From a virus: a stretch of 25,022 nt of DNA. Positions 11,203 through 16,389 of this stretch are shown here, one piece after another. Position 1 is the stretch's first letter, and each line of letters opens with the position of its first letter. Made by a program: the position numbers and the translations under genes. The stretch spans positions 1-25,022 of IMG/VR virus record IMGVR_UViG_3300027899_000067; one strand, written 5' to 3'. The notes below the pieces were generated by a model. That model was not told where the DNA came from. It made no database searches and was given only the letters and a program-made list of their open reading frames with translations.

Positions 11203-11231
11203 TGTACATTAATTCATAATTAGTGTATAAT
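11203..11231 (+). promoter_or_regulatory. TGTACA-17-TATAAT promoter (long TTAATT form)
   Basis: TGTACATTAATTC at 11203 and TATAAT at 11226-11231, spacer 17 bp. It lies upstream of a GC-rich leader and the helix-turn-helix gene at 11303. Confidence 0.82.
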
Positions 11232-11240
11232 AGTATTTCA

Positions 11241-11306
11241 ATGATTGGTAAAGCCGCCGCACTTTATCTTTCAATCAATCGCGGCATATTATGGAGATGT
11301 ATATGA
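11241..11306 (+). CDS. Possible 21-aa leader peptide
   Basis: A short frame starts 10 bp after the -10 box and ends TGA overlapping the next ATG (ATGA, 11303-11306). It reads through a GC-rich segment (GCCGCCGC at 11253-11260 and GCGGC at 11281-11285) that stands out in this AT-rich genome. No clear ribosome-binding site precedes it, and on leaderless timing the ATG is close to the probable transcription start. It may be a leader peptide, or the segment may act only as structured RNA. Low confidence. Confidence 0.25.
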   Translation: MIGKAAALYLSINRGILWRCI

Positions 11307-11554
11307 GCAAAACAGCAAAATTAGCAGCACACTTAGAAAAAGGTAATTCAGTAACAGCCAAGGAAATCCGTGGTAAATTCGGTTTGGCTAATCCACATGA
11401 AGCAGTACGTCAACTGCGCATGCAAGGTTTCTGTGTATATGCAAACGCAGTAAAATTGCATGACGGTACTCCTTCTACTAAATACCGTATTGGTAAACCA
11501 TCTAAAGCTATGGTAGCAGCAGCTTACGGCCTAACAGGCGGCGATTTGTTCTAA
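11303..11554 (+). CDS. Small helix-turn-helix (winged-helix-like) protein
   Basis: An 83-aa basic protein. Residues about 4-45 (KLAAHLEKGNSVTAKEIRGKFG then NPHEAVRQLRMQG) read as a helix, turn, recognition helix and wing, similar to small homeodomain/winged-helix proteins of marine T4-like phages. It ends with a Gly-rich tail (YGLTGGDLF). I chose ATG 11303, with GGAG at 11294-11297, rather than ATG 11291 or 11297. Its codons are more GC-rich and 'optimal' than those of neighbouring small genes, suggesting high expression. It is followed by a terminator, so it forms a single-gene unit under a TGTACA promoter. A DNA-binding regulator is the natural guess; its target is unknown. Confidence 0.65.
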   Translation: MSKTAKLAAHLEKGNSVTAKEIRGKFGLANPHEAVRQLRMQGFCVYANAVKLHDGTPSTKYRIGKPSKAMVAAAYGLTGGDLF

Positions 11555-11560
11555 TCAAAT

Positions 11561-11583
11561 GGGGGTGCAATGCCCCCGCTTTT
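11561..11583 (+). terminator. Probable Rho-independent terminator
   Basis: GGGGG (11561-11565) pairs with CCCCC (11573-11577) around a TGCAATG loop and is followed by GCTTTT. It comes 7 bp after the helix-turn-helix gene and just before the next gene's ribosome-binding site, so some read-through is likely needed for the downstream gene. Confidence 0.7.
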
Positions 11584-11593
11584 GAGGTATATT

Positions 11594-11974
11594 ATGGTAA
11601 GACTATCAAAACAAGAATTACAAGATTCCCAAGACCCAAATGCTACAGGTGGGCGAAAATTTGATGGTAATAAGTTACAATATGGCTTAGTACCTCCATT
11701 AGCTTTACGTGAGACAGTAAAAGTACTTACGTTTGGTGCAGAAAAATATGAACCAGATAATTGGCGTAGAGTTCCAGATGGCCATCGTCGTTATTTTGAT
11801 GCTGCTCAACGACATATTTGGGCATATAAAGAAGGCGAAATAATTGATCCTGAAAGCGGGGTAAACCATATGGCACATGCTATATGTTGTTTAATGTTTA
11901 TGTTAGACCTTGATGAACAAAAAACAAAAGATCAAGAAATAACTCATGAATTAAAGAAAATATTTGAGAAATAA
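11594..11974 (+). CDS. dATP/dGTP diphosphohydrolase-like protein (DUF5664)
   Basis: This 126-aa protein carries the GGRKFDGNKLQYGLVPPLAL block, the VKVLTFGAEKYEPDNWRRV block and a helix with RYFDAAQRHIWAYKEGE, then NHMAHAICCLMFML. These are hallmarks of the DUF5664 family, a MazG-like all-alpha fold annotated as dATP/dGTP diphosphohydrolase. Such enzymes cleave dNTPs to dNMP and pyrophosphate and could shape the nucleotide pool during infection. Acidic residues suited to metal binding lie around the EKYE and DPESGVNH segments. I chose ATG 11594 (GAGG at 11584-11587); the frame could open at 11570, but that lies inside the terminator. Substrate preference cannot be read from sequence, and no purine-Z genes are seen in this window. 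Confidence 0.75.
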   Translation: MVRLSKQELQDSQDPNATGGRKFDGNKLQYGLVPPLALRETVKVLTFGAEKYEPDNWRRVPDGHRRYFDAAQRHIWAYKEGEIIDPESGVNHMAHAICCLMFMLDLDEQKTKDQEITHELKKIFEK

Positions 11975-11976
11975 AT

Positions 11977-12005
11977 TGTACAAAAATCCAGAAGTAGTAT
12001 ATAAT
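11977..12005 (+). promoter_or_regulatory. TGTACA-17-TATAAT promoter for gene 45
   Basis: TGTACA (11977-11982) and TATAAT (12000-12005), spacer 17 bp, 24 bp before the clamp gene. This copy has the A-rich rather than the TTAATT continuation. Confidence 0.8.
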
Positions 12006-12028
12006 AGAATTTTAAGTGAGGAGTAACT

Positions 12029-12694
12029 ATGCAATTATCTAAAGACACTCTCAATAAGTTGAAAAACTTTGCTGAGATCAATTCAAACCTTCTAATCAAA
12101 CCGGGTAATTCAATTACCACTTTATCTGCTGGTAAAAATGTAATGGCTATTGCTAGTATACCAGAAGATTTCGGTGTGGTAGACTCTGGCTTTGGTATCT
12201 ATGACCTAAATGAATTCCTTGGTATCGTGTCTTTATTTGAGAACCCAGATCTAAGTTTCTCTCAAAAGTATGTAACTATCTCTGAAGGTAAGTCAGCAAT
12301 TAAATACTTTGCGGCGGATCAATCAGTTCTTACAGTACCAACCAAAACTCTTGAAATGCCACCAGCAGATATCGAGTTCAATATGACATCAGCAGTACTA
12401 CAATCTATTCGTAAGGTAGCAGCAGTTCTTAGGACTACAGACGTATCAATCGTTGGTGATGGTACTGAAATTAAGTTCCAAGCTGGTGATAAAAAGAATG
12501 CAACAGCAAATGCTTATAGTTCTGTTATTGGTGAAACTGATAAAGAGTTCTCTGTAAATCTTAAAGTTGATAATCTTAAATTATTACCGGGTGATTATAA
12601 TGTCAAGGTCTCTTCTAAAAAGATCTGTAAGTTTAGTAATGAAAGCTTGACTTATTATGTAGCAGCAGAATCTGACTCTACATTCCCAGTTTAG
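12029..12694 (+). CDS. 45: Sliding clamp (gp45-like)
   Basis: This 221-aa protein matches T4 gp45 (228 aa), the trimeric ring that tethers the polymerase and also activates late transcription. The N-terminal MQLSKDTLNKLKNFAEINSN segment, the early GKNVMAIASIPEDF block and the YDLNEFLGIVSLFE block (about residues 63-76) are typical of the family, as is the C-terminal FSNESLTYYVAAESDS strand pair. A GTGAGGAG site precedes the ATG. The clamp loader gene 44 follows, as in T4. The gap 12695-12758 holds a TATAAATA late box, so genes downstream may be boosted late. Confidence 0.92.
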   Translation: MQLSKDTLNKLKNFAEINSNLLIKPGNSITTLSAGKNVMAIASIPEDFGVVDSGFGIYDLNEFLGIVSLFENPDLSFSQKYVTISEGKSAIKYFAADQSVLTVPTKTLEMPPADIEFNMTSAVLQSIRKVAAVLRTTDVSIVGDGTEIKFQAGDKKNATANAYSSVIGETDKEFSVNLKVDNLKLLPGDYNVKVSSKKICKFSNESLTYYVAAESDSTFPV

Positions 12695-15393: not shown

Positions 15394-15813
15394 ATGAAAA
15401 TTGCAGTATTAGCATTATTAGTGTCACTGTCGGCCCACGCTGAACCACCAAAAGAAATGTATATGGCAAATGACGCCGGTGGGTTTGTTGTATTAACGAT
15501 TGAACTATGTACACATAAAAATGTGGCTAAAGAATATCCATATAGAGCTTATGCAACAGAAGGTTCTGATGTTGTTATGCATGAGGGATGTTGGAGTACT
15601 CCAGATACTTCTGCAGTGCCAACTGAATTAATGGTAAAAGAAGAAGGGGCTGGACCTGCTCCTACTTTACGAGTTATCAAAATGGTAAATACTTGGTGGG
15701 TAGAAGGTGGTAAGGCTACATTCTTTCAATCTGCATTTTTACCACAAAAGAAAAGATACCTTAGTAATGGTACAATTGACACCACGTTAAAACCGATTAT
15801 AGTTAAACCATAA
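15394..15813 (+). CDS. Secreted/periplasmic hypothetical protein
   Basis: A 139-aa protein with a clear Sec-type signal peptide: MKIAVLALLVSLSAHA, with likely cleavage after the Ala at residue 16 (A-H-A then EPP). The mature part has two cysteines (Cys39 and Cys66) that could form one disulfide, in the contexts IELCTHKN and HEGCWSTP, and a WWVEGG motif near residues 96-101. It is predicted to be mostly beta. Export to the periplasm is well supported; function is unknown. A GGGAG site precedes the ATG. It sits behind a late promoter and a structured leader, so late expression is likely; roles in superinfection exclusion, lysis or envelope change are possible but only guesses. Its stop abuts the tmRNA promoter. 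Confidence 0.75.
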   Translation: MKIAVLALLVSLSAHAEPPKEMYMANDAGGFVVLTIELCTHKNVAKEYPYRAYATEGSDVVMHEGCWSTPDTSAVPTELMVKEEGAGPAPTLRVIKMVNTWWVEGGKATFFQSAFLPQKKRYLSNGTIDTTLKPIIVKP

Positions 15814-15842
15814 TGTACATTAATTCTTTATTGGTGTATAAT
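15814..15842 (+). promoter_or_regulatory. TGTACA-17-TATAAT promoter for the tmRNA
   Basis: TGTACATTAATTC at 15814 and TATAAT at 15837-15842, spacer 17 bp. The expected start near 15849 lies about 30 bases before the first tmRNA helix strand, fitting the 5' end of the acceptor piece. Confidence 0.85.
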
Positions 15843-15848
15843 AGTATT

Positions 15849-16250
15849 TAGATTGTTGTAGAAGCTCTAAAGTAATACATGTTGGACGGCGGTTCGATTC
15901 CGCCCATCTCCACCAAAAGCATATTGTCACTAAGGTCCCGTAAGGATTATGTCTTTAGCGCGATAGTATGCTTTTGATGGAGATGACAAGGTTCTGACAT
16001 CTCATCAGAAGTACTCCGGTCGGTGTGGGAGGGACACACAGATGGACAACACTAGGACACCGTTCGAATCGGAACTAGAGTACTTCTAATGGGGATGACC
16101 AGGTTTCGACAGCGTGGGATAGGATAAGAGTCAACACGTGGGATCACGTTAAATACAAAAAGATATAACTGCAAACGATGAGTTATTCGCATTAGCTGCT
16201 TAATGTAGCTTAGGGTTCGGTAGGTTCCTCGTAACAGAATACCTACCACT
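15849..16250 (+). ncRNA. ssrA: Circularly permuted two-piece tmRNA
   Basis: The acceptor piece comes first: T-arm stem GGCGG/CCGCC (15888-15904) with loop TTCGATT, then CATCTCC (15905-15911) and ACCA. The coding piece comes second: GGGGATG (16091-16097) pairs with CATCTCC to form the acceptor stem (one G-U), and CAGCGTG (16110-16116) pairs with CATGTTG (15878-15884) to form helix P2 (two G-U). A hairpin ACGTG/CACGT (16136-16149) lies where PK1 is expected. The tag frame is GCA at 16171 to TAA at 16203, encoding ANDELFALAA, close to known tmRNA tags. The piece ends in a GGTAGGT/ACCTACC hairpin (16219-16247). The order acceptor-spacer-coding is that of the permuted tmRNAs known from alphaproteobacteria, some cyanobacteria and some betaproteobacteria. 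tmRNA rescues stalled ribosomes with SmpB. End positions are approximate. Confidence 0.93.
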
Positions 16251-16269
16251 TTCTATAAAGGAGTAACAT

Positions 16270-16389
16270 ATGTTAGGAACTTTATTTTGGGTATTAGTTG
16301 GTGCATTTATTGGTTGGCATGTTGAGCAACCTGCATGGGCAAAAACATTGAAGCAAAAAGTTTTAGGACTTTTTCATAAAATTTGGTAA
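16270..16389 (+). CDS. 39-aa single-pass membrane protein
   Basis: This 39-residue protein has a strong AAAGGAG site (16257-16263) and begins with a hydrophobic helix (LGTLFWVLVGAFIGW, residues 2-16), followed by a basic amphipathic helix (WAKTLKQKVLGLFHKIW). This layout, with a G-W at the membrane edge and a QPAWA turn, is typical of small phage membrane proteins of unknown role. It directly follows the tmRNA coding piece with no terminator between them, so it could be carried on the tmRNA precursor transcript. Possible roles include a holin-like or membrane-associated accessory peptide; none can be proven from sequence. Confidence 0.72.
   Translation: MLGTLFWVLVGAFIGWHVEQPAWAKTLKQKVLGLFHKIW

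Follow-up and report, generated by a model that had tools for sequence, protein, structure and literature searches.

Results

A permuted tmRNA gene on a T4-like phage fragment

The window, by which we mean the whole stretch of 25,022 nt analysed here (positions 1 to 25,022 of IMG/VR record IMGVR_UViG_3300027899_000067), is on its gene content that of a T4-like phage, with a Gp23 capsid protein, gp44-type and gp62-type clamp-loader proteins, a RegA-type repressor and family B polymerase relatives. Its sole RNA gene, as called by ARAGORN, is a permuted tmRNA (15823-16294, plus strand) with the tag ANDELFALAA*. Two Rfam models recognize the same gene: RF01850 (beta_tmRNA) at 15806-16266, with 137.3 bits against a gathering threshold of 84 (E 3e-42), and RF04321 (tmRNA_permuted) at 15854-16203, with 124.2 bits against 47 (E 3e-24). 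The best of these is RF01850, the betaproteobacterial permuted family, and we regard the assignment as a permuted tmRNA as practically certain. This T4-like aquatic phage carries a complete two-piece tmRNA gene of the permuted beta type, a kind of phage gene that is already known. The parts of the gene are the following.

15854-15915, plus strand: 5'-encoded piece, the 3' half of the tRNA-like domain (RF04321 and RF01850 alignments, sequence)
15888-15904, plus strand: T-arm (sequence)
15905-15911, plus strand: acceptor 3' strand "a1", CATCTCC, followed by A (15912) and CCA (15913-15915)
16091-16170, plus strand: start of the second piece, with "b2", D-loop region and P2 strand (Rfam alignment, sequence)
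16091-16097, plus strand: "b2", GGGGATG, the true acceptor 5' strand with G3.U70, pairing with a1 CATCTCC
16171-16203, plus strand: tag frame GCA AAC GAT GAG TTA TTC GCA TTA GCT GCT TAA, ANDELFALAA and stop (ARAGORN, sequence)
16212-16250, plus strand: 3' stem-loop/pseudoknot region of the second piece (RF01850 alignment, fold)

The order is permuted, the acceptor 3' strand and CCA being encoded 5' of the acceptor 5' strand, and the tag reading frame has both its resume codon and its stop. An earlier note on this DNA had read a permuted two-piece tmRNA in a phage with tag ANDELFALAA, and had named a permuted-tmRNA covariance model as the check. ARAGORN, RF01850 and RF04321 all bear this out, both Rfam models scoring far above their cut-offs; ARAGORN and the sequence yield the same tag; and the positions given for the T-arm, CATCTCC-ACCA, GGGGATG, the P2 strands and the tag frame are correct on the sequence. 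What the note overlooked is a 175-nt intervening segment with a structure of its own.

An Hsp20 gene lies 3' of the tmRNA. Upstream of the tmRNA, at 15394-15813, is a 139-aa reading frame whose start resembles a signal peptide and for which PHROG and Pfam gave no match. Around the tmRNA gene, neither promoters nor late promoters gave matches above chance. No SmpB gene was found in the 25-kb fragment, so that host SmpB would be needed unless the phage encodes SmpB elsewhere.

Tag type and relatives of the gene

In its interpretation the earlier note fared less evenly: the permuted gene, the tag and the phage stand, and the proposal that tag type and permuted architecture have different origins falls. 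That such a chimeric gene was envisaged is understandable from the tag, which is not alphaproteobacterial in style. Betaproteobacterial permuted tmRNAs nevertheless have this very tag type: the RF01850 consensus tag decodes to ANDEHFAMAA, and four permuted genes from Gallionellaceae/Nitrosomonadales MAGs, which share the T-arm and acceptor strand of the window and have an intervening hairpin of ~30 nt, encode ANDENFAMAA. On the strength of these tags we reject a chimeric origin of tag and gene as very improbable.

Permuted tmRNAs borne by aquatic phages have been published (PMC9004378); according to the available text of that paper, 53 of 133 unique phage tmRNAs are of the two-piece form, and 50 of the 53 come from aquatic phages. 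Our pattern scan of viral contigs for permuted tmRNAs gave at least 120 stretches, and ARAGORN called 103 permuted tmRNA genes, nearly all of them from these viral stretches as listed. Compared with named phages by BLAST, the tmRNA of the window gave short T-arm matches only. Among the relatives of the window phage, acceptor stems and tags switch, with G3.U70 kept in the pairs read: L123 and L171 have CAGGTCC/GGGCCTG in place of the CATCTCC/GGGGATG of the window, and L122 and L123, with gp44 88% and 82% identical, exemplify such switching of acceptor and tag.

A tandem insertion with a duplicated acceptor strand

The usual intervening segment in relatives is a single hairpin lengthening the acceptor helix, CCACCA-AAAGC...GCTTTTGAT-GGGG. 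The segment in the window (15916-16090) resembles two of these in tandem and, at 175 nt, is the longest among the matches listed (the 103 ARAGORN-called permuted tmRNAs, nearly all viral, a comparison in which it counts as 176 nt). The fold of 15910-16095 has a z score of -3.6, and none of 200 shuffles was as stable. The segment is made up as follows.

15916-15978, plus strand: module A, AAAAGCATATTGTC...GCGATAGTATGCTTTTGAT, a long hairpin continuing the acceptor helix (fold; L123 counterpart)
15979-15997, plus strand: "b1", decayed duplicate of the acceptor 5' strand, GGAGATGACAAGGTTCTGA (repeat identity, L123 alignment)
15998-16007, plus strand: "a2", apparent decayed duplicate of the acceptor 3' strand and CCA, CATCTCATCA (sequence; 9/13 match to a1)
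16007-16087, plus strand: tRNA-like element (TLE), inserted module (covariance model R1, family covariation)

The second, near-duplicate acceptor strand, GGAGATGACAAGGTTCTGACA, lies at 15979-15999. Compared with 16091-16112 it is identical at 17 of 22 positions, a value for which 5000 mononucleotide shuffles reach at most 16. Its first bases (GGAGATG, from 15979) are complementary to a1 CATCTCC at all 7 positions, and the alanine identity pair G3.U70, present in GGGGATG/CATCTCC, is absent with this duplicate. That an assembler copied an identical sequence is unlikely, since the two acceptor copies differ. The adjoining CATCTCATCA looks like a decayed acceptor 3' strand.

Alignment with L123 indicates how the segment arose. 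L123 matches the window at 90% over 15837-15999 and at 88% over 16076-16179, and a single stretch of it, 11218-11253, aligns to both window copies at an offset of 112 nt; being used twice, it implies that the window has a 112-nt insertion bounded by the repeat. The hairpin of module A is also present in L123, where it runs directly into the acceptor 5' strand. Judged by these alignments, the intervening segment grew by tandem insertion, giving the order a1 - hairpin A - b1 - a2 - TLE - b2, in which, as read from the paired strands, a chargeable acceptor stem with G3.U70 is given by a1-b2 only. A search elsewhere for tandem intervening segments, as an acceptor 5' strand closely followed by a 3' strand, returned 37 matches, none of which proved on reading to be a tandem tmRNA; the pattern of the window's own junction matched one unrelated coding sequence and nothing else.

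Predicted energies of the precursor are -128.9 kcal/mol with a1-b1 paired, -128.0 with a2-b2 and -122.7 with a1-b2, and these values point to competing folds. The duplicate strand b1 could thus hinder maturation, a1-b1 being predicted to be stabler than a1-b2. Taken further, the tandem duplication might trap a1 with b1, so that little or no mature tmRNA is made and the gene is in decay. The predicted advantage of a1-b1, about 6 kcal/mol, would accord with this, as would the degenerate state of b1 and a2 and a tandem arrangement known from the window contig alone. We nonetheless consider a decaying gene improbable: the tag frame, T-arm, CCA, G3.U70 and P2 are intact in a gene that scores so far above the Rfam cut-off; G3.U70 has been lost from b1 and not from b2, which argues that the functional strand was kept by selection; and b1 is able to pair with a2, as it does when the intervening segment is folded alone, which would free a1.

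A family of tRNA-like elements

The TLE of the window resembles the entire intervening segment of four other permuted tmRNAs (L016, L021, L087, L099). A pattern derived from it matched in 95 viral contigs, and looser patterns added divergent members, for a total of 135 viral loci in 70 sequence clusters. The covariance model R1 finds the element of the window at 16000-16090 with 79.1 bits (E 8e-19), a match that is not independent, the window being one of the 45 training rows.

Searches for the element beyond these contigs were largely negative. Rfam 15, at E values up to 10, gave no match to the TLE of the window or of L222, RF00005 included, and a gathering-threshold Rfam search of 17 TLE loci listed the surrounding tmRNA and tRNA genes only. 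An exact scan of 84,980 cellular genomes with the pattern that had matched the 95 viral contigs gave 0 matches. BLAST against 50,697 named phage records, which would miss distant variants, gave no close match; one search of the named phage records returned partial matches covering about the T-arm end. No obvious description was found in the open-access literature as far as it was available. The family is apparently confined to viruses in the sets searched, and TLE appears to be an RNA family not described before, within the limits of Rfam 15 and the accessible part of the open-access literature. Two further loci, L293 1080-1170 and L294 3940-4030, share CAGATCGACAAGACTAGA with TLE and differ in the other arms; they are doubtful, either a distant variant or chance.

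The element is a cloverleaf with an acceptor-like P1, a D-arm-like P2, a mini anticodon arm with a pentaloop, and a T-arm; it has no anticodon loop. In the window its arms are these.

16007-16020/16074-16087, plus strand: P1, with one C.A mismatch
16023-16027/16035-16039, plus strand: P2, D-arm-like
16040-16044/16050-16053, plus strand: P3, loop GACAA
16060-16062/16070-16072, plus strand: P4, T-loop TTCGAAT

Covariation supports this structure. Across 45 distinct members, 92.4% of the cells in P1-P4 are paired, against 71.8% when shuffled, and the covariation score is 0.592, against 0.178 +- 0.013 for shuffled alignments (0/500 reaching it) and at most 0.132 for slid versions. Two-sided changes occur in 9 of the 9 P1 pairs, and the closing pair of P3 changes on both sides (C-G 17, A-U 14, G-C 13). 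Covariation is found in P1 and P2, in the pair that closes P3 and in one pair of P4, within a four-arm cloverleaf with a T-loop; since most of P1 and P2 falls outside the search patterns, the covariation of these two arms is not a product of how members were found. Thirty further distinct rows from later, looser scans, mostly divergent and outside the model, gave 94.8% paired and a covariation of 0.597, values that lean towards the structure in that the alignment was model-fitted and a few true tRNA rows are included. That TLE is a real structured RNA family we hold to be nearly certain.

Where a tRNA has a 7-nt anticodon loop, TLE has a 4-bp mini-hairpin as its anticodon arm, with a pentaloop that is GACAA in 59 of 69 distinct members; the others have GTCAA, GATAT, GATAA, GAGAA or GTAAA. 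The P22 boxB hairpin is likewise capped by GACAA, which there folds like a GNRA tetraloop. About 25 positions of the core are invariant. P1, on the other hand, differs in length and sequence between sites, and CCA is missing from most members, so that no fixed cleavage site is evident. As a substitute for the T-arm, RNAalifold offered a GRAC/GUUC hairpin that 65 of 69 distinct members could form and that is broken in 4; we favour the T-arm, which has a covarying pair and, in some members, a full T-stem.

The kinship in shape with tRNA is also seen in searches. The TLE covariance model picks up genuine tRNAs as weak matches, aligned arm for arm; one member, L344, just reaches the RF00005 cut-off (29.2 bits), and the member in L330 is called a tRNA by ARAGORN. 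The most tRNA-like members (L335 3263-3370, L349 8696-8800 and L325 1528-1625) have a 5-bp T-stem; those of L335 and L349 end in G-CCA followed by a G+C-rich hairpin, and that of L325 in a U-run.

Placement beside tRNA and tmRNA genes

TLE is closely associated with genes for stable RNAs. Eleven of the 70 clusters lie inside permuted tmRNAs and 9 just upstream of one; 17 directly follow a tRNA, of which at least nine kinds are represented, and 8 directly precede one; in a single cluster the tRNA call within 150 nt overlaps the element itself. An additional 11 clusters have a tRNA or tmRNA within 3 kb, and for the remaining 13 no RNA gene was detected within that distance, two of these (L290, L326) being cut-off tmRNA contexts by eye. 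Neighbouring RNA genes within 150 nt number 185 on the same strand as the element and 0 on the opposite strand. Counted by loci and not by independent clusters, 92 of 135 have an RNA gene within 150 nt, against 45.8 expected for random placement in the same few kb.

Some settings are of other kinds. In L330 (253-383) the element stands directly before an abiF RNA (RF03085), and in L346 (2891-3880) it is near a GOLLD RNA (RF02032). In eight loci (L208, L265, L272, L273, L311, L316, L320, L321) it follows a conserved stretch ending in AGATAAACCAGAAAAA, with no adjoining tRNA gene; some of this group have a tmRNA within 3 kb.

Cargo and rearrangement in other viral permuted tmRNAs

Intervening segments of other viral permuted tmRNAs carry different passengers. 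Twelve contain a small reading frame with a ribosome-binding-like site immediately following CCA (L035, L019, L119, L003, L076, L112, L114, L010, L023, L034, L106, L088). Substitutions in it are mainly synonymous (dN 0.11 with dS saturated for L119/L003; 0.14 versus 0.34 for L035/L019). In several of these frames the stop codon lies beyond the GGGG cleavage site, and cutting would therefore yield a non-stop message, for which arfA, on the available text of PMC10107115, is a parallel. The tmRNA of L123 contains, beyond its resume region, a reverse-strand reading frame (11318-12100) that matches GIY-YIG weakly (Pfam E 0.001, below cut-off). In the upstream part both the tag, ANDSNYNYALAA, and the 3' end are replacements, and the orphaned end of the old tag persists 740 nt downstream.

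Discussion

Taken together, the locus is perhaps best explained as a working beta-type tmRNA that has undergone a tandem insertion and in which TLE serves as an aid to processing. We give this overall explanation a rough probability of 0.55, a figure that mixes the tmRNA assignment, the reality of the TLE family and the processing role. The last of these, that TLE is a tRNA mimic aiding the processing of stable-RNA precursors, is tentative and somewhat short of an even chance. Folded like the elbow of a tRNA set on a long helix, the element would recruit tRNA-processing enzymes, RNase P first and then those that trim ends, with RNase III possibly acting on the long helix; precursors, whether tRNA arrays or the two pieces of a tmRNA, would be cut beside it, and the intervening segment would be removed. 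Matured tmRNA, acting with host SmpB, would then tag stalled phage or host proteins. The analysis establishes the anatomy of the tmRNA, the insertion, and the structure, placement and strand bias of TLE; transcription, processing, charging and rescue, and any role of TLE, are what we infer. A processing role fits the placement of TLE, its strand bias, the conserved parts of the elbow and the unconserved, long P1.

Much of the same evidence might be accommodated by an inert or selfish module, in which case the tmRNA would be an ordinary working one and TLE would survive in the hairpin loops of stable-RNA precursors without aiding their processing. A P1 that differs by site under a conserved core is what would be expected of a module capping various local hairpins, and such a module could equally follow at least nine tRNA species and sit in unrelated tmRNAs, much as other cargo, for example the small reading frames, sits in intervening segments. 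The invariant positions of the core, and the strong compensatory change seen between divergent phages, argue instead for a selected function, as does the strict same-strand placement beside tRNA and tmRNA genes. We judge an inert module rather unlikely, at perhaps one chance in four.

Alternatively, the element might work as a decoy or regulatory RNA, mimicking a tRNA without its anticodon and titrating host factors that recognize the elbow of tRNA, for example defence or toxin proteins that cut tRNA, or modification enzymes. The conserved T-loop and D-arm-like arm without an anticodon loop are compatible with this, as are the virus-only distribution in the sets searched and the members adjoining an abiF-type RNA or near a GOLLD RNA. 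Embedding in the discarded intervening segment of a tmRNA, by contrast, suits processing better than it suits a free decoy, and we place this alternative well below the inert module, on a par with gene decay. Stated more generally, there are about even odds that aquatic T4-like phages carry a new class of anticodon-less tRNA mimics, a portable processing (or decoy) module lying inside, before or after tRNA and tmRNA genes, which in the window was inserted in the intervening segment together with a duplicated acceptor strand, giving rise to competing precursor folds.

The features of the locus may be set beside known systems. The permuted tmRNAs of RF01850 and RF04321 agree with the window in gene order, T-arm, acceptor with G3.U70 and CCA, P2 and an ANDE..FALAA-type tag; they differ in that the intervening segment of the window has 175 nt and comprises two modules together with an acceptor strand in duplicate, as against ~30 nt in the Gallionellaceae genes. 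Methylophage Melnitz and its relatives (PMC9004378), on the text available, likewise have a two-piece tmRNA in a T4-like aquatic phage, but the Melnitz ssrA is reported there as alphaproteobacterial-like with a glutamine riboswitch, and the available text mentions no tRNA-like element in the intervening segment. A tRNA-shaped RNA in the intervening sequence of a permuted tmRNA does have a precedent in a tRNA-Ala (PMC11915505). That case is an intact, true, high-scoring tRNA in one archaeal-labelled genome, whereas TLE has no anticodon loop, goes mostly undetected as a tRNA and recurs in many phages.

With tRNA itself (RF00005) TLE shares the cloverleaf order of arms, the 2-nt link between P1 and P2, a short variable region, a TTCRANY T-loop and a T-arm whose 3' strand runs into the acceptor-like stem; a few members also have the 5-bp T-stem, and one type has CCA. 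It departs from tRNA in its mini anticodon arm with a conserved pentaloop, its T-stem of usually 2-3 bp, its usual lack of CCA and the variable length of P1. The t-elements of plant mitochondria are tRNA-like processing signals, tRNA-shaped marks of cut sites for tRNA enzymes that are not themselves tRNAs. Their likeness to TLE is a functional analogy only, and the two are not homologous as far as is known.

The tmRNA of the window is one more phage example of its kind; TLE is probably phage-specific RNA biology that annotation has missed. Should it direct RNase P or other tRNA enzymes, it would be the counterpart, in viruses of prokaryotes, of tRNA-like processing signals, and a processing role would reveal how long tRNA arrays and two-piece tmRNAs come to maturity in phages. 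If TLE is instead a decoy, it would bear on tRNA-targeting defence.
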